This document shows positions 3,195 to 21,430 of a stretch of 64,000 bases of DNA, one piece after another (the first letter of the stretch is position 1; every line of letters begins with the position of its first letter). The position numbers were made by a program, and so were the translations under genes. The stretch is from Arthrobacter sp. 35W (GTDB lineage: Bacteria > Actinomycetota > Actinomycetes > Actinomycetales > Micrococcaceae), in contig NZ_KI519455.1 in assembly GCF_000482545.1 (NCBI RefSeq), positions 1,115,247-1,179,246 on the forward strand. The letters are read 5' to 3'. Under the pieces are notes generated by a model. It was not told the DNA's origin. It did no database searches and worked only from the letters and a program-made list of their open reading frames with translations.

Positions 3195-3343
3195 GTTTTA
3201 TTGATACCAATCATTTATTAATTGGTTATCTGGACCGTTGGCCCCACCCCCGTGGTGGCGGCGGTCCGTTTAGCTGGTTTCAAATTTAGTGCACCACCAC
3301 CTGCTCCTTTTCCGGGCGGTGGGGGTGTGTCTGTAATAAACAT

Positions 3344-8521
<5,178 letters not shown>

Positions 8522-8773
8522 CCACACCCTCCCTGGGTGGACCCGTTCTTCAAAAGGGGTCCACCATATTTGAAGGGGTGGGAAGGTCACTGCATGCTTG
8601 CGTCCACTATGTGGTTCCCGACCAACAACTTGTCGTTGTTGGCAGGGGACGAACGCCACACGTTGATCGTGGGATCCTGTTCGGGTCCCGGGTCGGGGTG
8701 TGGGATAATTGAATGAAACGTCATCGTTTCCCTAGTTTTCCCCGCCGGGTCCGTCCTGGTGTGTGGAGGTAGA

Positions 8774-8892
8774 GTTACGGCGGTCATAGCGTGGGGGAAA
8801 CGCCCGGTCCCATTCCGAACCCGGAAGCTAAGGCCCACAGCGCCGATGGTACTGCACTCGTGAGGGTGTGGGAGAGTAGGACACCGCCGGAC
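8774..8892 (+). rRNA. rrf: 5S ribosomal RNA
   Basis: The GTTACGGCGGTCATAGCG start pairs with the CACCGCCGG end, and the internal CCCATTCCGAACCCGGAAGC loop is diagnostic. About 119 bases. It follows 23S by roughly 250 bases, as in other Micrococcaceae. Confidence 0.96.
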
Positions 8893-9101: not shown

Positions 9102-9773
9102 CTAGCCGGCCTGCTGCCTGCGCACCATCTCGGCGATCCAGGCCGGCGCGAACGGCGACGTGCAGTTCGGGGGAGTCGGATAGTCCTTGAGCACTTCAAG
9201 GCGCTCACCGATGTCCACGGCCCGTGCCCGCTGCCCAGGGTTTTCAATGCCGATCTGGGCCAGGGTGTGGTTCATGGCCCACTGCAGGCGCTCCGGCGCC
9301 TTGCGCATCTGGTCCTCGATGATGTCGAGCAGCCCCTCAAGATCGACGCCTTCGGGGTTCTTCACCACTCGCTCGGACGTCAGCGCCCAACCGGCGCTTG
9401 CGACCACCGGATCCTGATCGCTGAACCACGCTGCACGCAGGTCCTCAACGTGCGGATTCTTCTTGACGACGTAGTTGACGAGCCAGTCTTGAACCTTGGG
9501 CACACGCGCTTCGCGCAGCATGCCGTCCAGCTCATCATTCCCGAACGCCTTCGGACGGCATATCAGCAGGGACAGCAGCCGTGCTGCGGTGTCGCCGGTC
9601 TCCCAGAGTTTTCGTGAGAGGTCCTGCTGCGTCTTCAACCGCTTGGCGACGGCGCGCAATTTGCCGAGGTTCACACCGTGGTCGTCACCGTGCTTTTCAT
9701 TCACGGCTCGTACCTTCGGGTCCTCAAGCCCGGCCAGTTCGGCCATTACCTCTGCCACCGTTGTCTCGGCCAT
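9102..9773 (-). CDS. AlkD-like DNA alkylation repair protein
   Basis: Predicted DNA glycosylase of the AlkD family, which removes N3- and N7-alkylated purines using a HEAT-repeat fold. The 223-residue length and all-helical composition fit, as do the family-like segments AWFSDQDPVVASAGWAL and QWAMNHTLAQIG. The ATG at 9773 has an AGGAGG ribosome site five to six bases upstream. The JetC terminator hairpin (9954-9990) separates it from the upstream JetABC genes, so it is probably its own unit. The family call comes from overall resemblance, not from a proven catalytic residue. Confidence 0.8.
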   Translation of the reverse strand: MAETTVAEVMAELAGLEDPKVRAVNEKHGDDHGVNLGKLRAVAKRLKTQQDLSRKLWETGDTAARLLSLLICRPKAFGNDELDGMLREARVPKVQDWLVNYVVKKNPHVEDLRAAWFSDQDPVVASAGWALTSERVVKNPEGVDLEGLLDIIEDQMRKAPERLQWAMNHTLAQIGIENPGQRARAVDIGERLEVLKDYPTPPNCTSPFAPAWIAEMVRRQQAG

Positions 9774-9953: not shown

Positions 9954-9990
9954 GATGTGGGTGCGCGGCGCTGGGCCGCGCACCCACATC
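9954..9990 (-). terminator. Terminator of the JetABC unit
   Basis: A 16-bp perfect stem (9954-9969 with 9975-9990) and a five-base loop overlap the jetC stop codon (9989-9991). No other gene is apparent between here and AlkD; the stretch 9774-9953 should hold the AlkD promoter. Confidence 0.7.
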
Positions 9991-12900
9991 AGCGCAGGAT
10001 GATGTCGGTTGCCGTGACGGGGGAGCGTCCGGTGGAGACGAAGCCGGACACGGCGGCCTGCGGATGCTTGATGATGTCCGTGACGGATCCCAGGTGCCGC
10101 GCCAGGTCCACCTTGTCTTCCGGTGCGGCCAGCAGCAGCTGGAAGCCGAATTCCTGGAGCGCATTGATGCCCGCGCCGGCGTACTCGGAGTTCGCCTGGA
10201 TGAAGGCCTCATCGATCATGACGGTGCCATAGGTGCTGTAGCCCTGGCTGTCGATGCCGAGCTGGTAGGCCAGCGCGGCGCCCATGATGAAGGACGTGAA
10301 GCGCTGCCCCTCGCCACCGGAGAGCGTGCCCGGCTCCAGCCCCAGCTCGGTCTCGCCGTTGGGCCTGTGCTCATTGCAGCTGATGGTCACGTGCTGGCGC
10401 ACGTCCAGCACGGTGTCGGCCCAATGCTGCTGGGCCGGGTCGTTGAGGGCGTCGACGAGGCGTTCCAGCGCGATGTAGCTGGCGGCCATCTTCTCCTCGG
10501 TTGCCTTCACATAGGCATTGCCCAGTGCGTCCTTCAGCTCCGTGCGGAAGGTCCGGGCCTCCTCGGGGATGGTGGTGCGCACCTCGAGCTTGAGCCGGCT
10601 GCCCTTTTCAAACGGGACATCGTCCAGGATCTGGTTCAGCGGCAGGATGCGCTCCTCAATGGCGCGGCGCTCCTCTTCAAGCAGCTGCAGCAGGTCCGAG
10701 AAACGCTCATAGGAGCGGTTGTTGAAATACTCGCGGAACTCGTCCTGGCGCTGCGGCAGCCCCTCGGAGATGATCTGCTGGTACAGCTCCTCGTAGTGCG
10801 CCGCGGCGTCGACGCCGGTGCCGAAGGACGCGCTGTGCTGCGGGCCGAACTCGCGGGCGAAGGCCTTGAAGGTGTCGGTCAGGGCCACCTCGGTGCGCAG
10901 CAGCCGTTCCTTCAGTGCCGCCATCCGCTCGCCCAGGGCGAGGGTGCACTGGGCAAAGGCGGGGTCCAGCTGCTCCAAGGTGGCGGGTCCGCCGTCGGGC
11001 AGCTGGGGAGCCAACTCCTGGAAAGCCCATTCGGCGGCCGGGTGCGACTGGACGCGGGCGGCGGTGCTGGCCGCCGAGGACTGCGCCGTGGCCAGCTCGC
11101 CGTCGATCCCGGAGAGATCGTGGTTCAGCACGGCCAGACGGCCGACGCCGGTTTCCAGCTCCGCCTTCGCCGCGGCGAGGGATTCCCGGATGGCACCCAG
11201 CGTGGCGCTGGAATCCACAGTGGCCTGCAGCGCCGTCTGGAGCTTCTCCAAGCCCGCGGCCAGGGCATCGCCGTCGAGCTCGGCAAAGGTGCGCCCGTCG
11301 CGGGCCACGCGCTGGAGGGCATCGAGCCGCCCGGCGAGCTGCTCCTTGGCCTTGGAGCGCGCATCGGCCAGGGCCGTGGCCTGGGCGTGGGCGGCGGCCA
11401 TGCCGTCCGCCTCCGCCTCCAGCAGGGCGATCTTGTCCACGTTGTTGAAACCCAGCAGGTAGTCGCCGGGGTTCACGGTGCGGGTGTCGCGCTCGAAGGT
11501 GTTGCTGTTGACCTTCAAGGTGCCGGCGAGGGAGATCGCGCGGTCGTGGCCGTGCAGCTCGGCGTCGCTGTCCACACAGTGGAAACCGAAGTCGCGGGTG
11601 ATCTTGGCGCGCAGCCAGTCGCCGGCGTCGGAGTTCTTGAACTCGAGCTTGGTCACGAGATCGGCGTCGCCGGCGTCCGCCGGGCGCGGGGCCACGCCGA
11701 TGTTGATCCAGCGCAGCTTGCCGTGGCCGTCCATGGCGTTGATCGCCTTGGTGACGGCCTTGATGTCCGAACCGCGGATCAGCAGCGTGGTGGCCAGGGA
11801 CCGCAGCGCCTTCTCCGCGGCCGGGCGCCACGGCAGATGGTCCGCATCGATGTCGACCAGCTCACCGGCGAAGGGCATGTGCTCGACGTCGATCCCGGTG
11901 CTGGCCGCGAGCTGGCGGCGGGCTGCCGCGCTGGCGCCGTCGATGTTGTTGCCGCGCCGCGCATAGGAGGCAATGTCCGCGCGCAGCTTCTTCTCGGTGT
12001 TCTTGGTGTTGATGGAGGCGGCCACGGCCTCGTATTCCAGGGTGCGGGCGGCCTCGGCCTCGCCGCGTTGGTGCTCGACGGCGGCTGCCGCGCCCAGGCG
12101 GGCACTGGCCAGCCCCTGCTCGCTCCACTCGTACTCCAGTCCTGCGGCATCAAGGTCGTCACGGACCGTCGACTGCACGCGAAGACGCTCCTCGAGCTCG
12201 CGGCGGGCGGCGCGGATGTCCTTTTCCAGGATCTCGATCGCCCGGCCGCCGTGGTTGGCGTGCTGCTCGGCCAGCTGGGCGACCGCGGCCTCGGCAGCGT
12301 CCTTGGCCTCGGCCGCCGTGCGGATCTGCGCGGACTTCTCCTCACGCGCTCCGGCCAGGGTGGTGGAGCGGGCAGCCAGCAGTTCCGCCTGGAATTGCTG
12401 GCGGACGAGGGGCAGCTGGACATTTTTTAGCTCAACTGTGCGGTCAAGCTGGGCGCGCAGTTCCTTGTACTGCTGGTGCTGGGCGGGCACATGGGCCAGG
12501 GCATCGCGCTGGGCGCGGGCCTCCTCCAGCTGGCGGTAGATGCCGCGCAGGTGGCTGAAGTCCTCCACGGCGCCGCGGGCGGCAGCCAGGGTGGAGGGAA
12601 TGTCCAGCACCTCGTAGCGGAAGAACTTGTTGACGCCCTTGTCCAGGCCCTTGCCGTTCTGCAGGGTGCGCAGCAGCGAGAAGGCCTTGTCATTGTCGAT
12701 GCCCAGCCGGCGGCGGAAGCGCTCGGCGAAGGTCTTGTGCACGTCAAAGGCTTCGGAACCGGGCAGCGCCGCGTGCAGGGACGACGGCGAGAAGCGCCGG
12801 CTGCCGTGCTTCTCCAGCGCCGCGGTGTCCAGGGGTTTGTCGTGGATCAGATAGTGCTTGCCCACGGAGCCTTCCAGCCCGTTGGCCGGCAGGTCGAACA

Positions 12901-13291
12901 GGGACGCGATGGTCACGTGCCGGCCCAGACCGTCCTCAAAGACGAGGGCGATGGCGGACCAGGTGGCGCTGGGCCGCTGGAACGTGGTGCCGGCCGCCGT
13001 CTTGATCTTGCGTCCGCGCATGTAGCTGAACGTGGTGCGGCGGTCCTTGCGGTCCGCGGCCTCGTGGGCGGACTCGTTCAGCCGGGGTGCGGCGTAGAAG
13101 ATGTGCTGGATGCCGTCGAAGAGCGTGGACTTTCCCACGCCCGGGTGGCCGGTGAGCAGGGTGCCGGCGCGGTCCACGTACATGGAGTGGCGGCCGTGGA
13201 AGGTGCCCCAGTTGACGACCTGGATGGCGCTGAGCCGGAACTGGCCGGGGTTGACGGCCTCGCCGAACGGCAGGGTCTGGGCGATGCTCAT
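9989..13291 (-). CDS. JetC/MksB-like SMC-type ATPase
   Basis: SMC-like ATPase of a Wadjet/MksBEF condensin, 1100 residues, the usual JetC length. The N-terminal head has NWGTFHG and the Walker A GHPGVGKST at about residues 48-56. A long coiled-coil region follows. The C-terminal head has the ABC signature LSGGEGQRF at about residue 990 and Walker B VMIDEAF at about 1023. In studied Wadjet systems JetABC extrudes DNA loops and JetD cuts small circular DNA. The start codon directly abuts the jetB stop, so the two are translationally coupled. No JetD-like gene follows; the next gene is AlkD-like. It could therefore act as a chromosome-organising MksB or use another nuclease. Confidence 0.9.
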   Translation of the reverse strand: MSIAQTLPFGEAVNPGQFRLSAIQVVNWGTFHGRHSMYVDRAGTLLTGHPGVGKSTLFDGIQHIFYAAPRLNESAHEAADRKDRRTTFSYMRGRKIKTAAGTTFQRPSATWSAIALVFEDGLGRHVTIASLFDLPANGLEGSVGKHYLIHDKPLDTAALEKHGSRRFSPSSLHAALPGSEAFDVHKTFAERFRRRLGIDNDKAFSLLRTLQNGKGLDKGVNKFFRYEVLDIPSTLAAARGAVEDFSHLRGIYRQLEEARAQRDALAHVPAQHQQYKELRAQLDRTVELKNVQLPLVRQQFQAELLAARSTTLAGAREEKSAQIRTAAEAKDAAEAAVAQLAEQHANHGGRAIEILEKDIRAARRELEERLRVQSTVRDDLDAAGLEYEWSEQGLASARLGAAAAVEHQRGEAEAARTLEYEAVAASINTKNTEKKLRADIASYARRGNNIDGASAAARRQLAASTGIDVEHMPFAGELVDIDADHLPWRPAAEKALRSLATTLLIRGSDIKAVTKAINAMDGHGKLRWINIGVAPRPADAGDADLVTKLEFKNSDAGDWLRAKITRDFGFHCVDSDAELHGHDRAISLAGTLKVNSNTFERDTRTVNPGDYLLGFNNVDKIALLEAEADGMAAAHAQATALADARSKAKEQLAGRLDALQRVARDGRTFAELDGDALAAGLEKLQTALQATVDSSATLGAIRESLAAAKAELETGVGRLAVLNHDLSGIDGELATAQSSAASTAARVQSHPAAEWAFQELAPQLPDGGPATLEQLDPAFAQCTLALGERMAALKERLLRTEVALTDTFKAFAREFGPQHSASFGTGVDAAAHYEELYQQIISEGLPQRQDEFREYFNNRSYERFSDLLQLLEEERRAIEERILPLNQILDDVPFEKGSRLKLEVRTTIPEEARTFRTELKDALGNAYVKATEEKMAASYIALERLVDALNDPAQQHWADTVLDVRQHVTISCNEHRPNGETELGLEPGTLSGGEGQRFTSFIMGAALAYQLGIDSQGYSTYGTVMIDEAFIQANSEYAGAGINALQEFGFQLLLAAPEDKVDLARHLGSVTDIIKHPQAAVSGFVSTGRSPVTATDIILR

Positions 13292-14122
13292 CTAGCGGCC
13301 TTCCTTCTCTGATGCAGCTGATTCGTCCAACAGGGTGGGCCCGCCTGTTTCGTCCGGCCCGTCGGGCCCGCCGTCGGCGTCGTCGTCCTCGTCGGCGCCC
13401 GGCTCCAGATCGAAGGCGTCCTCGGCGTTCTCCCCGAGTGCGTCGTCATTGGCAGCGCTCTCATCCAGTGCCTTGATGTAGGCCGGGATCTGCTCCACGG
13501 AATCGAACGGCAGGGCCATGGCCAGGGCATTGCTGACCCGGTAGACATGCGCCAGTTCGGTGGGCAGCAGCAGGCGCAGGGCCAGCAGGCGGGCGATGGA
13601 GGAATCGGTGAGCTCCTCCAGCCGCTTGTCATCCACGGCGCCGGGCAGGCGGTGCTCGCCCAGAATCTCCCGGGCGGCAGCGCGGGAGATGGTGGCATCG
13701 GTGCCGGAACCGGCGTGGCGGTCCAGCAGCAGCCGCAGCCGCAGGGCCAGCAGCGTCTCCTCGCGGCGCAGGGCCTTGCGGGGCGTGATGGGGGCGCTGT
13801 GCGGAGCATCGACATCGGCCGGCGTCAGCATCGCGATCTTGCGCTCGGCATCGATGGACAGCAGCAGGAAGATCTCGCTCAGGTAGCGCTGGATCGCCAG
13901 GCGGTGGTCCACGATGGCCGTCCACACCTTGGGATCGGCGGCGCCGTCCACATAGGGGCCGCGCAGCAGCCGCACCAGGGCCTGGCGGATCTGCAGCGAG
14001 AACTGGCCGGTGTCGCCGTCGAACAGGGCACGCTCGCCGCGGTAGGCATCGGCTGTGCCCGAAGCGGCGGTGGGACCCGCCGGGGTGAGGCCGTCGTCGG
14101 AGAGGTCAACGCTAGTGCTCAT
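13292..14122 (-). CDS. JetB/MksE-like DUF4194 protein
   Basis: The 276-residue protein matches the DUF4194 (JetB, MksE) kite subunit: a winged-helix core around residues 110-215 with segments such as REETLLALRLRLLL and AHVYRVSNALAMALPF, and a very acidic disordered C-terminal tail. Kite subunits bind the kleisin JetA and link it to the SMC ATPase. The gene overlaps jetA by 11 bases and abuts jetC, the standard A-B-C order. The acidic tail (about residues 225-270, mostly Asp, Glu, Gly) is longer than the core needs. Confidence 0.87.
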   Translation of the reverse strand: MSTSVDLSDDGLTPAGPTAASGTADAYRGERALFDGDTGQFSLQIRQALVRLLRGPYVDGAADPKVWTAIVDHRLAIQRYLSEIFLLLSIDAERKIAMLTPADVDAPHSAPITPRKALRREETLLALRLRLLLDRHAGSGTDATISRAAAREILGEHRLPGAVDDKRLEELTDSSIARLLALRLLLPTELAHVYRVSNALAMALPFDSVEQIPAYIKALDESAANDDALGENAEDAFDLEPGADEDDDADGGPDGPDETGGPTLLDESAASEKEGR

Positions 14123-15581
14123 GGCGGGAATCCTTCGTGAAGGTGATCAGCGGCAGGTAGGCGGTGCGGGTGGAGCCGTCGATCTGGGTGTACTGCACCT
14201 GCTGGAACTGCTGGTCGTCAACGTCAGCATCGGTGCCGCGGGCGGCCAGGACCAGCCCGCGGATGGAATTGATGTGCCGCAGCTCCGCCGGGAGCGTGGC
14301 AAACGCGTCGCCCACGGTGGCGCGGCCCTTGGCCGAGGCGGCGCGGACACGGGCGACGGCGTCGTGCAGGGCGGGCATGTTGGGGGCCGGCGTGTTGGGC
14401 GTGCGGTGGATGTCGGCACCGCTCAGCGCCGGTGGCGCGGCCAGCCTGGGCGGGGGAATGTGGTCCGCCGGGTTGAAGATGCCCAGGCCCGCCAGCGTCT
14501 CAAACTCCGGCCCGTACAGCAGCGGCGCCACCACGGGGGTGCGCGGGCGCAGGTGCTCGGAGGTGGCCACGGCAACCTCGGCGGCGCGGATGGCCTTGCG
14601 CAGCAGCATGGAATCGCGGAACTCGTCGCTTTGGACGTAGGTGTGCAGGCTTTCGGAGAGGCGGCCATAGATGGCATGGACCTCCGAGGCCTGGCGGCGC
14701 AGCTCCCGCACCAGTGTGGCCAGGGTGGTGCGCTCCTCGGTGGAGAGCTCATCAATGAACTCCCGCTCCAACACCTCATTGACGCTCTGGCGGAACCGCG
14801 CCTGCTGGGCCGGATCGTTGAGGAACTCGGTGAAGCCGCGGAAGGTCTCGCCCTCGGCGGTGTTGCGCAGCACCTTGTCGCCCTCGAGGACCTGTCCCAC
14901 GGCCACGCCCTTGGCCATGGAGGACTCCATGATTTCCTGCCGGATGGTGTGCAGCATGCGCTCCACGCCGTCGCGCATGCGCTTGAAATCCGAGGGCAGG
15001 GAGGACGCAAGGTCCAGAACGCTGCGGGCCGCCGCGACGGCGGTGTCCGTGGACAACACGGCGGGGCTTTGGCCGTTCTTCAGCGCCTCCACCTCCGATT
15101 GGCGGTCCGCGATCTCCGCCTCCAGCTGGGCGATCCGGGTCTCGGGGTTCGGGTCCGTTTGGTAGGAGAGCGTTTCCAGGCTGCTCAGCAGTGTGGTCAG
15201 CCGCGAGCTGTTGAGGTTGGTGCGCTCCGCGGTGAAGGTGTCCACGAAGTTCAGCACGCGCGCGCTGGCGGCGGTGGGTTCATAGACAAACTGGCCGTCC
15301 ACCATGGGGCGGGCCAGGAACTGGTTCCGGACCCAGGAATCGGCGTAGTTGGAGGCCTGCCAGGCATCGTTGAGGCTCAGCTGCTCGTAGCGGAGTTCCT
15401 TGAGGAAGGCGGCCAGCGCTCCGTGGAATTCCTCCAGCGGAATGCGAGGCCTCGCCGGGGTGAACTCGGCCCGCAGGAAGGCCACGGTCCACGGTGCTGC
15501 GGAGAGCAGCTTCCAGGCCGGGCCCAGACGGAGCTCCTTCTGGGCATGCCAATTGGCCACGGCGTTGTCAGTGGAGCGCAT
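14112..15581 (-). CDS. JetA/MksF-like DUF3375 kleisin
   Basis: Predicted kleisin of the Wadjet/MksBEF complex, 489 residues, usual for DUF3375. The N-terminal segment with NWHAQKELRLGPAWKLL and EFHGALAAFLKELR fits the family; the middle is coiled-coil and helical. I chose the ATG at 15581. The frame stays open to 15716, but that extension reads through the palindrome at 15673-15725 and its residues do not look like coding sequence. It is the first gene of the tightly packed A-B-C unit. The 157 bases upstream, with the strong hairpin, may make it a separate transcript from the 635-residue gene. Confidence 0.87.
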   Translation of the reverse strand: MRSTDNAVANWHAQKELRLGPAWKLLSAAPWTVAFLRAEFTPARPRIPLEEFHGALAAFLKELRYEQLSLNDAWQASNYADSWVRNQFLARPMVDGQFVYEPTAASARVLNFVDTFTAERTNLNSSRLTTLLSSLETLSYQTDPNPETRIAQLEAEIADRQSEVEALKNGQSPAVLSTDTAVAAARSVLDLASSLPSDFKRMRDGVERMLHTIRQEIMESSMAKGVAVGQVLEGDKVLRNTAEGETFRGFTEFLNDPAQQARFRQSVNEVLEREFIDELSTEERTTLATLVRELRRQASEVHAIYGRLSESLHTYVQSDEFRDSMLLRKAIRAAEVAVATSEHLRPRTPVVAPLLYGPEFETLAGLGIFNPADHIPPPRLAAPPALSGADIHRTPNTPAPNMPALHDAVARVRAASAKGRATVGDAFATLPAELRHINSIRGLVLAARGTDADVDDQQFQQVQYTQIDGSTRTAYLPLITFTKDSRHEH

Positions 15582-15672
15582 CACGTACTTTCTGCCGGGC
15601 CAGGCTGCGGGGAGGGTAGTGTCCCATTTTATGCCATCCGGCGCCTCCGCCGGTCGCCCGCCAACCCCGGCC

Positions 15673-15725
15673 AAAGCGCACTTGGGGACAGTGTTGGGCC
15701 CCCGCACTGTCCCCAAGTGCGCTTT
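15673..15725. repeat. 21-bp perfect intergenic palindrome (TTGGGGACAGT type)
   Basis: Arms 15673-15693 and 15705-15725 are exact reverse complements around an 11-base loop. It lies between the 635-residue gene and jetA and may end transcription of the former. The core TTGGGGACAGT recurs in the palindrome at 29265-29321, so this looks like a dispersed element rather than a one-off terminator. Confidence 0.8.
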
Positions 15726-15738
15726 CGCGGAGGAGGAG

Positions 15739-17646
15739 TTAGGGTTCCATGTCTTCGTGGGCGACGACGCGGCTGAGTTCGATGGTGCCGTCGGCGCATT
15801 TCCAATAGTGCAGGCGGCGGGCGGCGCTGACGCGTTCTTCGACGTGCAGGCGCCAGCAGTGGTCGATGCCTGAGGTGCCGGGGCGGGTGACGCCGGGGGC
15901 GCTGCCGGTCTTCCCGGTCCGCAGCTCGTGGGCCTGGCGCTTCTTCAGGGCCTCCGACCGGCCGGCCAGGAGGTCGACGACGGCGCGCAGGGCCTTGACG
16001 CGCTTGTCCTTGGGCTCGGCCAGCAGGGAATCGCAGAAGGCCGGCCCCACGCTGAAGGCACGCAGCGGAAACTCCGCCTTTTCCGCGGCGGGGATGATCT
16101 TGGCCCACGTCCGCAGCACCTCGAAGCGGACGTAGTCCTCGCTGGTGGCGAACCAGCCGCGGTCGGAGCCCTTGGACTCGCTGCTGGCGGCCTTGCCGGC
16201 GTTGCGGTAGTTGGTTTTGAGCTCGCGCAGCTTGACGTCGGCCGCACGCAGCCGCTCCGCCAGGTCCTTGGCCCGGGCGTTGGCTTCATTCACCTCCACG
16301 GCCAGGTGGTGCGCCTCCTCACGCTCGCGCTGCAGCTTGGTGCCCAGCTTTTCCAGCTGGATCTGCCCGGCGTTGCCGTTGGCCAGCTGGTGGCGCAGAT
16401 GGTGGACCTCGTCCTTGAGCGCATTGTTCTCGGCCTTCAACGCGTCCTGCCGCAGCAGCGACTGCTTCAGCGCTCCGGGCGCCGCTGCCGGCGCAGCAGT
16501 TGCCGGGGCGGCCGGGGCGGCGCCGGGCAGTGCAGAATCCCCGGGCTCCGGGGCGCCAGTGGTCCCGTCGCCGGCGAAGCCGGCCTCCGCCGGGGCGGCG
16601 GGGACCTCCAGCGGACCGCCAACGGCCGCTTCATCGTCGTACTTGTTCCGGCCGAGTTCCAGCCACGGAATGCCGCCCCGCAACAGGGCCGGCGCGGGCA
16701 CAATGTCCTCGTCGTCGTCCACGTCCAGCATGGACAGCAGCAGTTTTCCGCCCTCAAAGCGGACCCGGACGGCCACCACCTCGCCCACACTGAGGAGATC
16801 GTCCGCGGTGTCGAAAACGTTGGACGAGATGCGGGCCAGAGGGATGCCGATGCGCTGGCCGGGGTAGAGCAGCACCTCGGCCTTGTCCGCGTGGACCGAT
16901 TCCACCAGGGCCAGGGCCACGCTGCCATCACTGTAGATGCCTCTGACACTGGTGGGCGCAGCCGCCGCCGGGACCTTGAAGCTGTGCTGGGCGGCGTCGT
17001 AGCTGCCGCGGATGTCCTGGCCGGGGGCCAGCAGCCAGTCGAGGGCGATGCCGGGGAACTGGAACTCCTGGCGGATGGTGGCCTTCGCGCCGCTGGGCAG
17101 GGCCACAACGGCCCGGGCGCCGTTGGTCGCCAGGCTGACAACCGTCCCCGTGGTGTCTATGGGTGCCGGTGGGGCCGGGGCCGCCGTCCGCGGCTGGGGC
17201 ACGATCGCCGCCGCCATCTTCTCGGCATCGCGGACCACCCAGGTGGCCGCATCCTCGCACTCGGCGGCGCTGCGGACCAGGTGCAGGGGGCTCTCGCGCG
17301 TATGTTCCAGCCATCGAGTGCCCGGCGGATAGGCCCGCACCGCGTTGCCAAAGATGCCCGCCTCCTTGGAGAGCAGGTCCTCCAGGTCGTACGTGGTGCG
17401 CCCGGTCTGGACCAGGGCCAGCACGGCGATGCCATCGAGCTTGCGGCTGAGCTGGACGGCATCCAGCCGGCATTCGGGGAACTTGGCATCGTGGGAAACC
17501 ACGACGACGACGTCCGTGCGTTGGGGGTCCAGCAGGAGCTCGGCCAGGGCGGAACCGGAGGGCTGCAGCAGCTCGGCGGGCGCGGTGGCGGGCTCCGCCG
17601 CCACCGCGGGGGCAGGCTTGGTGCTGCGGTTCCTGCGCGAACCCAT
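15739..17646 (-). CDS. Modular protein: S1-like barrels, coiled coil, compact C-terminal domain; unknown function
   Basis: No family recognised with confidence, 635 residues. Residues about 30-150 form an alternating strand/helix region (VVVVVSHDAKFP onwards) suggesting a Rossmann- or PIN-like fold. Residues about 165-340 look like two small beta-barrel, S1-like units. A Pro/Ala linker leads to a coiled coil (about 395-480, KAENNALKDEVHHLRHQL). The last 45 residues have a RelE-like pattern (WRLHVEERVSAARRLHYWK, then ELSRVV). The start at 17646 has a GGGAGGGGAG ribosome site; the frame extends 13 codons further. It lies between the helicase-nuclease gene and jetA on the same strand. It has none of the JetD TOPRIM features I could look for. 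Confidence 0.75.
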   Translation of the reverse strand: MGSRRNRSTKPAPAVAAEPATAPAELLQPSGSALAELLLDPQRTDVVVVVSHDAKFPECRLDAVQLSRKLDGIAVLALVQTGRTTYDLEDLLSKEAGIFGNAVRAYPPGTRWLEHTRESPLHLVRSAAECEDAATWVVRDAEKMAAAIVPQPRTAAPAPPAPIDTTGTVVSLATNGARAVVALPSGAKATIRQEFQFPGIALDWLLAPGQDIRGSYDAAQHSFKVPAAAAPTSVRGIYSDGSVALALVESVHADKAEVLLYPGQRIGIPLARISSNVFDTADDLLSVGEVVAVRVRFEGGKLLLSMLDVDDDEDIVPAPALLRGGIPWLELGRNKYDDEAAVGGPLEVPAAPAEAGFAGDGTTGAPEPGDSALPGAAPAAPATAAPAAAPGALKQSLLRQDALKAENNALKDEVHHLRHQLANGNAGQIQLEKLGTKLQREREEAHHLAVEVNEANARAKDLAERLRAADVKLRELKTNYRNAGKAASSESKGSDRGWFATSEDYVRFEVLRTWAKIIPAAEKAEFPLRAFSVGPAFCDSLLAEPKDKRVKALRAVVDLLAGRSEALKKRQAHELRTGKTGSAPGVTRPGTSGIDHCWRLHVEERVSAARRLHYWKCADGTIELSRVVAHEDMEP

Positions 17647-17737
17647 CAGATGCTCCCCTCCCGCCAGCCAGATGCGTCGTTGCAACCGGACCGTTGACTG
17701 AAAAGACTACGGCCTCTTGCTGGCAGCGCGCCGTGGA

Positions 17738-20700
17738 TTACGAACACAGACCGACAAATGCCCCCAGATCCGTCAAGGCGTCCGGGCGGGTGGGCATGTA
17801 GCTGGTCAGCTGGCGGGAGCGGATGATGACGGCCCGCCACTGGCCGCGGGAGATGGCCACGTTGATCCGGTTGCGGTTGAGCAGGAATTCGGCGCCGCGG
17901 GGCGTCTCGGCAATGTCTGAACACGCCATGGTCACCAGCACCACCGGCGCCTCCTGGCCTTGGAACTTGTCCACCGTGCCGACCCGGACGCCGGGCAGGC
18001 CGGCGGCATCCAACGCATCGCGCACGCGGTGGATCTGCGCGTTGTAGGCAGCCACCACCAGAATGTCCTCCTGCCCAAGCGGGCGGGGGTCCGCTGACGC
18101 TCCACCGGTCCAGGCCAGCCCCACGTGCCGCCTCACCTGTGCCACCACCTCGCGGGCCTCCTCCGGAGATGAAATGGTGTTTCCGGAATGCTCCACGAAC
18201 ACCGTTTCCACGCCCGCGGGGACCCCGGCCAGCTGGCGCAGCGACGCCGCCGGGGCGGATTTCAGCCGCCCCTCGTAGCTCAGGTCCGAGACGGCGGAGC
18301 AGAGCCGGGGATGCATGCGCCATGAATCGGCCAGGAAGTAGCCCAGCTCCGCGGGCAGCGTGTGGTGGCCCGGCGAGAGCCAGCCCAGTGCCGACTCGTC
18401 CACGGGCTCCGGGTGCGAGCCCTGCGTGACCTGGGGCAGCTGCTGGGGATCGCCCAGCAGGAGCAGCCGCTTGGCGGCCCGCGACACCGCCAGCGTGTTG
18501 GCCAGCGAGAACTGCCCCGCCTCGTCAATCACCAGCAGGTCCAGCGAGCCTTCGGGGACCTTGGTGCCCGTCATAGTCCAGGCGGTGCCGCCGATCAGGG
18601 CGCCGTCGGGCCCGTCCAGCAGGGCCGCGAACCTGCTGTCTTCGGTGACGGTCCAGGCGACCTCGCCTGTCCCCTTGGGCTTCTTGCCCACTCGGTCGGG
18701 ATCGATGCCGGCCTTTTCCACGGCGGCCGTGAGCATGTTTTCGACGACGGCGTGGGCCTGGCCCACCACGCCCACCTTCCAGCCTGCGGCCACCAGATTG
18801 GCTATGACGTGCGAGCCCACATGGGTCTTGCCCGTCCCCGGCGGGCCCTGCACGGCGAGGTAGGAGTGGTCCAGATCCCGCACGGCCGCGGTGATGGCGG
18901 CAATGTTGTCAGCGCCGTGGTCGCCGACGACGACGGCGGGCAGCGCGTCGAGCGTGGCCAGCCGGGGCGGGCGGCGGCGCAGGATGTCCACGCCGGGGTG
19001 CTTCGGCAGCGAGGGGACCATCGAACCGACGGTGCGTGCCAGCTCGCTGAGCGATTCCTGGATGCTGACGGTCCTGATGGGCTGGTCGGGGGTGAGCGCC
19101 ATGGGCGCCTGGTCGTACGGCTGGACCTTGAGCGAGGACTTCTCCTGGACCACCAGCACCACGGACTCGGGGTTGGCCGGATCCGGAGCCGAATCTAGAA
19201 CGGTTGTGCTAAAAAGGCCGCCGCGGGGCGGTATGGATCCCGGCTGTCCGCCGTCGGCCGGTTCCAAGCCCTCCGGCAGGGGGTGGTTGAACATGCGGAA
19301 CCAGCTGGTGCCGGGCCTGAAATCGGAGCCGTCGGACATCCTGCCCTTCAAGCGCAGGGTGCGCACCTCGGTCCGGGCCCGGGGACCGGACTTGGCCCAG
19401 CCCTCAAGCTCCTGGGCCTGGTCCACCACAAAGACGTTGCGGCCCTCGGTCCACTCGTCCACGGACGTGCCCAGCCTGTCGAAGTGCCCCCACCAGAACT
19501 GCTTGTTCTCCCGGCGGTGGTATCCGGTGGCCGCCGCGATCATGGCGATGGCGCGCTCGTCGTCGCTGAAGGTGTGGTGCTTGTCCGCGGCCAGCGCGGC
19601 CAGGTATTCGTGCAGGCGCACCTCCTCCGGGCTCGGCTCATAGGCGGGCACCCCGGCGTCGTCAGCGGTTCCGGCCAACGTGTCCTGCCGGGCGGCACGG
19701 GCCGCCTGCTCCGCCGCCGTCAATCCGGGGACGGGCAGCGCCAGCAGCCAGTCGCGCAGGCGGAGGGTGGAGAGGCAGTCGTAGTGGTTGTAGTCGGCGA
19801 TGGAGGCGAGGATCCGGGCCGCCTCCGCGCCATGTCCGGCCTCCTGTGCCTGGCAGTACTGCGCGTAGGCCACCACCGAGGCTCCGGCATCCGTGACATC
19901 GCCCGAGCGCAGATTGTCCTTCATGTAGAGGGGCTCGAGCTTCTTGATGGAGTAGCTGGATTCGGAAATGCGCAGCGAGTGGCGCACGGTGTCGTAGAGG
20001 TCCACCAGCAGGCCGTCCTTGAGCCAGCCATCCACAATGTCCTCCCCGCCCACATGGCGCTGGGACAGGCTGCGCAGGGCCGACTTCTCGTAGGCGGCGT
20101 AGTGGTAGACGTGCATGTCCGGATGCTCCGCGCGCCGCTCCTGGACATAGGCGAGGAAGTCCAGGAAGGCCTGGCGCTCGCCGTCGCGCGAGTGCGCCCA
20201 GAAGGGCCGGAACGCCGGATCTGCGCTGGCGTTCCCGCCGTCGTCCTCCCGGTGGTTCTCCCCGGCGGGCGCTTCGAGGACGCCGAAGAGGTACTCCAAT
20301 CCCCAGCCGCCGTCGGAGTCCTGCCACAGCGGATCGCCCTCGAAGTCGAAGAAGATGTCACCCTCGCTGGGCGTGGGCAGGGTGGCGGTGGTGGCGCCGG
20401 GGAGCACCTTGTACGTGACGGTGTGCTGCTGGCCGTTCTTGGCGTAGGTGCGCCCGCCGTCGGCCTCTTCCACGCCCGTCTGCATGCGGGCCTGGCTGCG
20501 CAGCCGCGCCACGGGGCCGGCGGCCTCCGCCTCCGGCAACGCTGCGAGATCCTCAATGGTGTGGATGTTCCTGGCCCGCAGCTTGCGGCGCGTTCCGCTC
20601 GTCATGCCCGCCACCAGCAGCAGATCGCGGGTACGGGCAATCTGGCCGGCGCAGTAGTCGCACCGCCCGCAGGCGGTGAAGCCCTCGGTGCCCCATTCGA

Positions 20701-21430
20701 CGGGGGATGCGGCGGCGCGGTGGCCGCCGGCCAGGGCGATGAAACGCGCCCGGCGCTCGCGGTACACGGGCAGCAGATCCCGCAGCGTGTAGGACTGCCG
20801 GCCCATGTCGCCGAGCACCAGGGTGGCCATCGGCGCTGGTTCGATGCCGGCTGCCAGCAATTGGTCCGCATAGGCCGCCAGCTGCAGCAGCGCACCCACC
20901 TTGGCATGCCGGGCCAGCTTGGTGTCCCACACGGCGTAGGCGGCAGCGTTCTCCGGCCGGGCTCCGGCGGTTCCCTCTGGGGCCACCGCCACCTCGACGT
21001 CGGCGCGGACCAGGAAGTCGGCAAAGCCAACAAAGGCGAATCCGGGCTCCGAGGGGGCGAAGAAGGTGGCCTGGAAGACGACGCCGGCACCGTCCCGCAG
21101 GGCCGTGATGGTGTCGGTGTGCTTGGCCTCGAAGTCCGCGCGGGTGGGCGACGCACGGGGCACCTCCAGCACACCGGTGGCGTTGGCAGGGTCCCATGGG
21201 CCCAGTTCCACCAGCAGGGAGTCCAGCAGTTTGCGCTCGTGTACATCGCCCAGCTCGGCCGCCCGCCGGTTCATCTCATCGGCGGGGAAGGCGGCCCTGG
21301 CTGCGAGGCCCAGCTTCTCGTCCAGGACGCGCAGAGTGCGGTACTCGCATTCGCTGGCGGCCACCAGATCGCTCGCGGAAAAGACCAGATCCGCCGGCTG
21401 TCCGGGGGTGGACGGTTCAAGCAGGAACAT
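17738..21430 (-). CDS. TM0106-type RecB-like nuclease / RNase H-like / SF1 helicase fusion
   Basis: A 1230-residue nucleic-acid-processing fusion of the TM0106 RecB-like nuclease family. Order: a PD-(D/E)XK RecB-type domain (VWDTKLA at about residue 167, with a cysteine cluster CGRCDYC at about 255 as in Fe-S nucleases); an RNase H-like 3'-5' exonuclease domain (FFDFEGDP at about 363 and HYDC at about 553); then a Dna2/UPF1-like SF1 helicase with Walker A GPPGTGKT (about 862), DEAG (about 968), VGTVDKFQGQE and the VAISR motif near the C-terminus. Probably cytoplasmic. The family is widespread in actinobacteria with uncertain function. It lies upstream of the 635-residue gene by 91 bases, so a joint role is possible but unproven. 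Confidence 0.88.
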   Translation of the reverse strand: MFLLEPSTPGQPADLVFSASDLVAASECEYRTLRVLDEKLGLAARAAFPADEMNRRAAELGDVHERKLLDSLLVELGPWDPANATGVLEVPRASPTRADFEAKHTDTITALRDGAGVVFQATFFAPSEPGFAFVGFADFLVRADVEVAVAPEGTAGARPENAAAYAVWDTKLARHAKVGALLQLAAYADQLLAAGIEPAPMATLVLGDMGRQSYTLRDLLPVYRERRARFIALAGGHRAAASPVEWGTEGFTACGRCDYCAGQIARTRDLLLVAGMTSGTRRKLRARNIHTIEDLAALPEAEAAGPVARLRSQARMQTGVEEADGGRTYAKNGQQHTVTYKVLPGATTATLPTPSEGDIFFDFEGDPLWQDSDGGWGLEYLFGVLEAPAGENHREDDGGNASADPAFRPFWAHSRDGERQAFLDFLAYVQERRAEHPDMHVYHYAAYEKSALRSLSQRHVGGEDIVDGWLKDGLLVDLYDTVRHSLRISESSYSIKKLEPLYMKDNLRSGDVTDAGASVVAYAQYCQAQEAGHGAEAARILASIADYNHYDCLSTLRLRDWLLALPVPGLTAAEQAARAARQDTLAGTADDAGVPAYEPSPEEVRLHEYLAALAADKHHTFSDDERAIAMIAAATGYHRRENKQFWWGHFDRLGTSVDEWTEGRNVFVVDQAQELEGWAKSGPRARTEVRTLRLKGRMSDGSDFRPGTSWFRMFNHPLPEGLEPADGGQPGSIPPRGGLFSTTVLDSAPDPANPESVVLVVQEKSSLKVQPYDQAPMALTPDQPIRTVSIQESLSELARTVGSMVPSLPKHPGVDILRRRPPRLATLDALPAVVVGDHGADNIAAITAAVRDLDHSYLAVQGPPGTGKTHVGSHVIANLVAAGWKVGVVGQAHAVVENMLTAAVEKAGIDPDRVGKKPKGTGEVAWTVTEDSRFAALLDGPDGALIGGTAWTMTGTKVPEGSLDLLVIDEAGQFSLANTLAVSRAAKRLLLLGDPQQLPQVTQGSHPEPVDESALGWLSPGHHTLPAELGYFLADSWRMHPRLCSAVSDLSYEGRLKSAPAASLRQLAGVPAGVETVFVEHSGNTISSPEEAREVVAQVRRHVGLAWTGGASADPRPLGQEDILVVAAYNAQIHRVRDALDAAGLPGVRVGTVDKFQGQEAPVVLVTMACSDIAETPRGAEFLLNRNRINVAISRGQWRAVIIRSRQLTSYMPTRPDALTDLGAFVGLCS

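Follow-up and report, generated by a model that had tools for sequence, protein, structure and literature searches.

The window analyzed here, a 64,000-nucleotide stretch of Arthrobacter sp. 35W contig NZ_KI519455.1, carries the three genes jetA, jetB and jetC, of the type I Wadjet families, and no gene recognizable as that of the fourth component, the nuclease JetD, occurs anywhere in the genome. The reading that we favor, with a probability of roughly 0.6, is that the trio encodes a JetD-less structural maintenance of chromosomes (SMC) complex of the MksBEF type, vertically inherited and mostly chromosomal, that likely serves as a second condensin beside Smc-ScpAB. This reading draws on the trio itself, the genome-wide lack of recognizable JetD, the clade to which the trio belongs, kept ATPase motifs, purifying selection, and the occurrence of Smc in the genomes tested. 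JetD-less MksBEF is already known as a kind; what is new is an actinobacterial clade of it that is broad and vertically inherited. In a full-text literature search covering few subscription papers, no title or abstract described a JetD-less JetABC clade in Micrococcaceae, and the combination of Arthrobacter with MksB gave no match.

The jetABC trio and the search for JetD

All three genes are encoded by the minus strand, with jetA first, jetB second, and jetC last. An MksF/kleisin-like protein matching DUF3375 (2.4e-95) is encoded by jetA (14112..15581), an MksE/KITE-like protein of 276 residues matching DUF4194 (3.5e-24) by jetB (13292..14122), and an MksB/MukB-like SMC ATPase of 1100 residues, matching the Pfam families AAA_29 (3.5e-18) and SbcC_Walker_B (2.9e-16), by jetC (9989..13291). 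The initial annotation of this stretch had described the genes as complete, in standard order and overlapping; completeness and order stand, as does the overlap of the jetA and jetB open reading frames (ORFs), but jetB and jetC abut. The start of jetA is likely the ATG at 15581, giving 489 residues, rather than the TTG at 15716 that opens the mechanically called ORF, because alignments with close relatives begin, in most cases, at residue 39-46 of the latter.

Comparison with known families places the trio close to type I Wadjet. The best PADLOC models are the JetA1, JetB1, and JetC1 sets (JetC model PDLC00518 at 1057 bits), the solved chains closest to JetC are Wadjet JetC 8dk2 and 8as8, and the JetA profile matches a solved Wadjet JetA chain. 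AlphaFold predicts JetA with low overall confidence (predicted local distance difference test score, pLDDT, 62.8), and the model was consulted solely for the ranking of matched chains: Foldseek places Wadjet JetABC chains at ranks 1-5, then MukBEF, with low template modeling scores. Against the Pfam MksE model (PF21980) JetB reaches E 0.024 and 15.5 bits, under the cut-off of 27, and it fits DUF4194 instead, so we regard it as a KITE subunit of Wadjet type, though an MksBEF-like mode of working is possible. At the level of gene order JetA, JetB, and the JetC SMC occur together, as in Wadjet type I, and SMC, kleisin, and KITE genes stand without a nuclease, as in MksBEF. One candidate mark of JetD docking, the IFDR motif of JetB named in PMC10586767 (sources given by PMC number are drawn on throughout for their accessible portions), was dropped, as it cannot separate the groups: the pattern [IVLM][FWY]D[RK] occurs in 0/71 testable JetB proteins of the 86 class-1 loci defined below, and in none of the listed JetB candidates of JetD-bearing loci.

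JetD itself (DUF3322 plus the DUF2220/JetD_C TOPRIM nuclease), a defining trait of Wadjet type I, was found in neither the locus nor the genome. Across the 4.66 Mb genome, which is 99.99% complete, the Pfam model JetD_C (PF09983) has no match. A hidden Markov model (HMM) of JetD from 15 full-length relatives recovered all 15 of its own loci, and had no match at E ≤ 10 in window ORFs of at least 80 residues or in 85 related loci. A search with a 14-row JetD alignment returned nothing from this genome at E ≤ 0.1; as a control it matched both of two JetD-bearing genomes, and among the other 23 genomes it gave one chance-level partial match (E 0.018). JetD is truly missing from this genome, at least in recognizable form. 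The initial annotation was therefore right to call it missing, and a copy nearby or elsewhere in the genome, which it had named as the outcome that would overturn its reading, did not turn up.

A JetD-less clade in Micrococcaceae

In a survey of 197 genomes of the family, with three short JetA fragments (G105, G159, G131) excluded, jetA falls into two groups separated by a gap: class 1, at least 43% identical to the window's JetA, and class 2, at most 30% identical. Class 1 comprises 86 genomes from eleven genera, the window's among them, with one locus each, and class 2 comprises 49 loci. JetD lies within 20 kb of jetA in 43/49 class-2 loci versus 0/86 class-1 loci, and the order jetABC is intact in every class-1 locus. 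Two of the six class-2 exceptions (G108, G087) apparently sit near contig ends, judged by coordinates. Contigs stop 145-623 bases past jetC in four class-1 loci (L031, L035, L036, L040), where the genome-wide JetD search decides, and locus L051 is truncated 1.6 kb upstream of jetA. JetD is present in 49/197 family genomes. No JetD match exists anywhere in 58 of the class-1 genomes, while 28, with partial and relic matches counted, have one that lies either on a different contig or, where the contig is shared, no closer than 267 kb. Among named genomes, a scan found 201 relatives, and none of the best 80 loci has JetD; these come from Arthrobacter, Paeniglutamicibacter, Glutamicibacter, Zhihengliuella, Zafaria, Specibacter, Paenarthrobacter, one Kocuria, other Micrococcaceae, and one Sporosarcina. 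The absence of JetD is a property of the clade, not a peculiarity of the strain.

Class 1 forms a single clade in a JetA tree (Shimodaira–Hasegawa-like approximate likelihood ratio test, SH-aLRT, 100), and in a JetC tree of all 86 loci nine of the ten multi-member genera are each monophyletic. In the window's genus the genomic site is also kept. In the window, jetABC converges on a plus-strand rRNA operon recognized by Rfam (3343..8892, with 16S at 3343-4869, 23S at 5395-8525, and 5S at 8776-8892), and an rRNA operon is found on the jetC side in 5/6 same-genus loci scanned; in the sixth, the contig stops 1.5 kb past jetC. Because class 1 is a single clade that follows genus lines in both trees and, in the window's genus, retains its rRNA-side site, the trio is, on this sequence evidence, inherited vertically and mostly chromosomal.

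The complex itself shows signs of upkeep. Intact SMC ATPase motifs, a trait of MksBEF, are present: Walker A and Walker B patterns occur in JetC from 86/86 class-1 loci, the window included, and the xSGGE signature, scored as a simple pattern, in 82/86. In 12 hand-picked close pairs the ratio of nonsynonymous to synonymous substitution rates (dN/dS) is 0.04-0.18 for jetC and below 0.35 for jetA and jetB wherever computable, indicating that class-1 jetABC is under purifying selection. A protein with an Smc hinge was detected in all 13 class-1 genomes tested, so class-1 JetABC is a second SMC complex there.

Some loci stand apart from this pattern. The Sporosarcina locus, L165 (NZ_JADHDY010000019.1; Sporosarcina beigongshangi, Bacillota), has a class-1 JetA 72% identical to the window's, and its contig is probably an actinobacterial contaminant. 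Segment G062:C1:426903-427100 holds a JetD_C relic interrupted by two TGA codons, 1.3 Mb from the class-1 jetABC of the same genome. Across the actinobacterial phylum, DUF3375 was found in 10/296 genomes and JetD_C in 17/296 (15 above the cut-off); the 12 JetA places in that survey, five without JetD nearby and two of these five class 1, are too thin for broad claims. JetD-less JetABC loci outside the window's clade are L131-L133 and L140-L143; L139, the sister of L131 and L143, does carry a JetD, albeit a divergent one. In L132 (11364-17168), from another actinobacterial family (f6), the gene of a 785-residue PIF1-like helicase lies ~90 bp downstream of the JetD-less JetABC.

Possible function and competing explanations

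In type I Wadjet, JetC dimers that JetA bridges and JetB binds hydrolyze ATP, with DNA looping as the favored model, and in the last step JetD cuts small circles (PMC10586767, PMC10512200). By homology, the JetC motor, JetA kleisin, and JetB KITE protein would form such a complex here, with JetA bridging the JetC dimers and JetB loaded onto them, and it should resemble its type I Wadjet counterpart in binding DNA, hydrolyzing ATP, and extruding loops. Without JetD, the extruded loop would stay uncut. The most likely role would then be to organize or segregate chromosomal DNA alongside Smc-ScpAB; in essence, and by analogy, the complex probably manages DNA rather than destroys plasmids. A non-cutting MksBEF condensin was one of two options offered by the initial annotation, and it is now well supported by the lack of JetD beside both class-1 and named loci and by the pattern of inheritance.

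Known systems provide both likenesses and contrasts. The same JetA, JetB, and JetC families, in the same order, make up Wadjet type I JetABCD, Corynebacterium glutamicum MksBEFG, and Mycobacterium smegmatis EptABCD; unlike these, the trio described here has no JetD/MksG in its locus, its genome, or beside the 86 clade loci, and appears vertically inherited. Pseudomonas aeruginosa MksBEF, a JetD-less condensin that aids chromosome organization (PMC10586767), is likewise an SMC complex of three genes that lacks JetD and shares its genome with Smc. It belongs to a different phylum, and in contrast to it JetB here is a DUF4194 protein with a weak MksE score. It has been proposed that Wadjet gave rise to MksBEF condensins when the nuclease was lost (PMC10586767), and the Micrococcaceae clade would be a natural case of that proposed transition in another phylum. 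Within this one family JetABC occurs both with and without JetD, and some genomes contain both kinds, so that a switch from defense to housekeeping becomes testable in soil-type bacteria. For Paenarthrobacter lasiusi S21, a related organism, JetA, JetB, and JetC without JetD are listed beside a separate JetABCD (PADLOC "Wadjet (other)", PMC11719660); this is a table line, unaccompanied in the accessible portions by any discussion of the missing JetD, and the locus may belong to the clade. The PADLOC definition of Wadjet needs all four genes, and incomplete Muk-like sets are reported as Wadjet "other" (PMC9252829). A "Wadjet" call in an Arthrobacter-type genome without JetD should not be taken as plasmid defense.

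Several observations weigh against a vertically inherited, JetD-less chromosomal condensin. C. glutamicum MksBEFG shows no chromosome-folding effect, acts on plasmids, and has a nuclease (PMC7083940), so a role as chromosome condensin should not be assumed for every actinobacterial Mks complex. JetD may be too divergent for the profiles used. Class-1 JetA can be aligned over almost its full length with JetD-associated JetA, and a nuclease-docking surface may therefore still be present on it. Members of genus g8 do not group as a single clade by JetC, and the JetA tree, of 93 rows, includes 58/86 class-1 rows and carries a long-branch warning where other groups join. Two Arthrobacter records in a plasmid collection (754 kb and 1.35 Mb) bear a class-1-type jetA, and the genome searches scored only a small number of top candidates in each genome (at most 7 for jetA). 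Two genes upstream of jetA also co-occur with the trio, in counts that take no account of phylogeny: a helicase-nuclease gene is present in 67/86 class-1 genomes versus 38/111 others, and the family of a 648-residue ORF is matched in 27/197 genomes, 25 of which also have class-1 jetABC (25/86).

The explanation that comes nearest to rivaling a condensin, tentative and in our view unlikely, is a non-cutting system against plasmids or foreign DNA, in which JetABC would extrude and compact small circles and so silence or mis-segregate them without cleavage. Its proteins belong to the same families as those of type I Wadjet, its C. glutamicum relative acts on plasmids rather than on chromosome folding (PMC7083940), and an analogous proposal exists for Smc5/6 on viral circles (PMC10586767). 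Inheritance genus by genus and the rRNA-side site kept in the window's genus are, however, unlike a patchy defense gene; JetD itself occurs in 49/197 family genomes. We also know of no tested bacterial system of this non-cutting silencing kind, and count this against it. That the locus is instead a degenerating Wadjet, on its way out after losing JetD, agrees with the missing nuclease and is otherwise hard to credit for a trio that stands in order in every class-1 locus across eleven genera, with ATPase motifs kept and dN/dS well below 1; purifying selection largely refutes it. We give as little credence to the idea that a second Wadjet locus, at another place in the genome, furnishes JetD in trans. 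The 28 class-1 genomes with a JetD match elsewhere, partial and relic ones included, would allow it, but the nearest JetD on the same contig is 267 kb away and the other 58, the window's genome included, have no match; with JetD_C and the JetD alignment both at zero, it is rejected for this genome unless the nuclease is unrecognizable.

The second option of the initial annotation was that a neighboring gene supplies the cutting activity. In a Wadjet with a replaced cutter, the upstream Dna2-like RecB/RNase H/SF1 (superfamily 1) helicase would process JetABC-looped DNA. Its gene lies upstream of jetA on the same strand in 30/86 class-1 loci from five genera (the window's genus 5/11, g23 11/11, g24 11/11, g18 2/3, g30 1/1) and beside jetABC in 30 of the best 80 named loci, a set made up mostly of these genomes; the gap to the jetA ORF is ~33-70 bp in four same-genus genomes, and the nuclease, RNase H-like, and helicase motifs are kept in all 29 full-length copies. 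Yet the co-occurrence noted above ignores phylogeny, 19/86 class-1 genomes lack the helicase, 38 genomes have it without class-1 jetABC, an opposite-strand gene (matching polysaccharide deacetylase in one case) intervenes in 20 of the 30 adjacent loci, and in the window both the 648-residue gene and a hairpin lie between. The adjacent state also requires six changes on the JetC tree. Given its absence from those 19 genomes, its presence in the 38 others, the frequent intervening gene, and the six changes, the adjacency looks like old, partly broken synteny in which functional coupling is weakly possible, and a replaced cutter seems improbable. No better placed is the idea of a type I Wadjet engine domesticated for housekeeping and functionally coupled to this helicase-nuclease in one Micrococcaceae branch, where the SMC motor would gather or sense DNA and the helicase-nuclease would process ends or forks; if true, the coupled system would be the bacterial counterpart of Dna2 acting with Smc5/6 or Rad50. 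Counted in its favor are the 30 helicase-adjacent class-1 loci and the PIF1-like helicase near JetD-less JetABC in one of three other-family loci. An effector role for the 648-residue S1/coiled-coil protein is very improbable: it is encoded directly upstream of jetA on the same strand, its N-terminal part resembles PADLOC HEC-07, and 25/27 genomes with a match also have class-1 jetABC, but that tally too is blind to phylogeny, the gene occurs in 25/86 class-1 genomes and within 10 kb of jetA in 1/86 loci, the window's, and 20 fetched relatives share no listed neighbor family with the window. Compared across relatives, neither gene stays consistently with JetD-less jetABC (1/86 and 30/86), and this, together with the scattered occurrence of the helicase, weakens the option of a neighboring cutter.

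Neighboring genes and hairpins

The helicase-nuclease gene (17738..21430, minus strand) encodes 1230 residues comprising a TM0106 RecB-like nuclease (TIGR03491, 2.5e-47), an RNase_H_2 domain, and an SF1 helicase (AAA_11/AAA_12); the matches to TIGR03491, RNase_H_2, and AAA_12 confirm its initial description as a RecB/RNase H-like/helicase fusion. With TM0106 RecB-like nucleases and Dna2-like helicase-nucleases it shares TIGR03491 and the AAA_11/AAA_12 helicase; it differs from them in its extra RNase_H_2 domain and in not being an obligate jetABC partner. The protein is Dna2-like. In the alignment of the 29 full-length copies (the partial L053 was left out), C28, D138, D169-x-K171, C254, C257, C260, D362, E364, and the Walker motifs are kept in 29/29, and we take the conserved residues to be catalytic or Fe-S (iron–sulfur) residues. 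The window's copy has H549 where 28/29 aligned copies have E; the position falls within a part of the RNase H-like domain that is strongly conserved as N-x-YDCLSTLRLRDWL. No gene family near jetA, other than jetABC, was seen to be common to all genera; the other widest clusters lie across the jet genes themselves and resemble shadow reading frames of them.

Between the helicase gene and jetA lies the 648-residue modular ORF (15739..17685, minus strand), with a HEC-07-like N-terminal part (PADLOC HEC-07, 5e-12), an S1-like oligonucleotide-binding (OB) domain, a coiled coil, and a conserved C-terminal domain for which there is no naming Pfam model. It had been annotated as a 635-residue protein with S1-like, coiled-coil, and RelE-like parts. 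The S1-like part is borne out by a PNPase chain match in a profile search (E 9.2e-5), whereas the RelE-like C-terminus found no match in Pfam and none among the best 60 of 91 PDB profile matches; its conserved residues (R583, H586, R589, R612, E616, H626, W628) resemble RelE by eye only, and a single-sequence fold of this region was too poor for use (pLDDT 53). A PHROGs search of the ORF returned nothing. Among the 20 fetched relatives, which show 31-41% identity, as many as nine, chiefly from the window's genus, share neighbors with one another, and none of the listed neighbor families extends to the window's surroundings except for an antisense frame. The ORF is a neighbor, not a part of the system. 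On the other side of the trio, the AlkD-like gene reported after jetC is indeed present (9102..9773, minus strand; PF08713, 3.5e-18), and this genome is the only one where it lies within ~10 kb of jetA, with no match in the other 85 loci or the 80 named loci.

Two hairpins flank the trio, and both fold far better than shuffled sequence. The first (9954..9990, minus strand) has a 16-bp stem beginning in the jetC stop codon (folding free energy, dG, -39.6 kcal/mol, z -7.4); the second is a perfect 21-bp inverted repeat (15673..15725) between the 648-residue ORF and the jetA start (dG -55.4 for 71 nt, z -8.3). A T-tract is absent at either. The terminator that the initial annotation had placed after jetC is thus backed by a strong hairpin but not by a T-tract, and is possible as a putative one; its argument that the upstream hairpin speaks against a single transcript agrees with the strong folds, again though the T-tract is absent. 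The operon is likely jetA-jetB-jetC alone, as judged from the nucleotide sequence. Scans for sigma-70 promoters and for tandem repeats found none. The 18-base core of the upstream repeat is paired only here in the genome, and one half-site, with 2 mismatches, occurs on contig C1.

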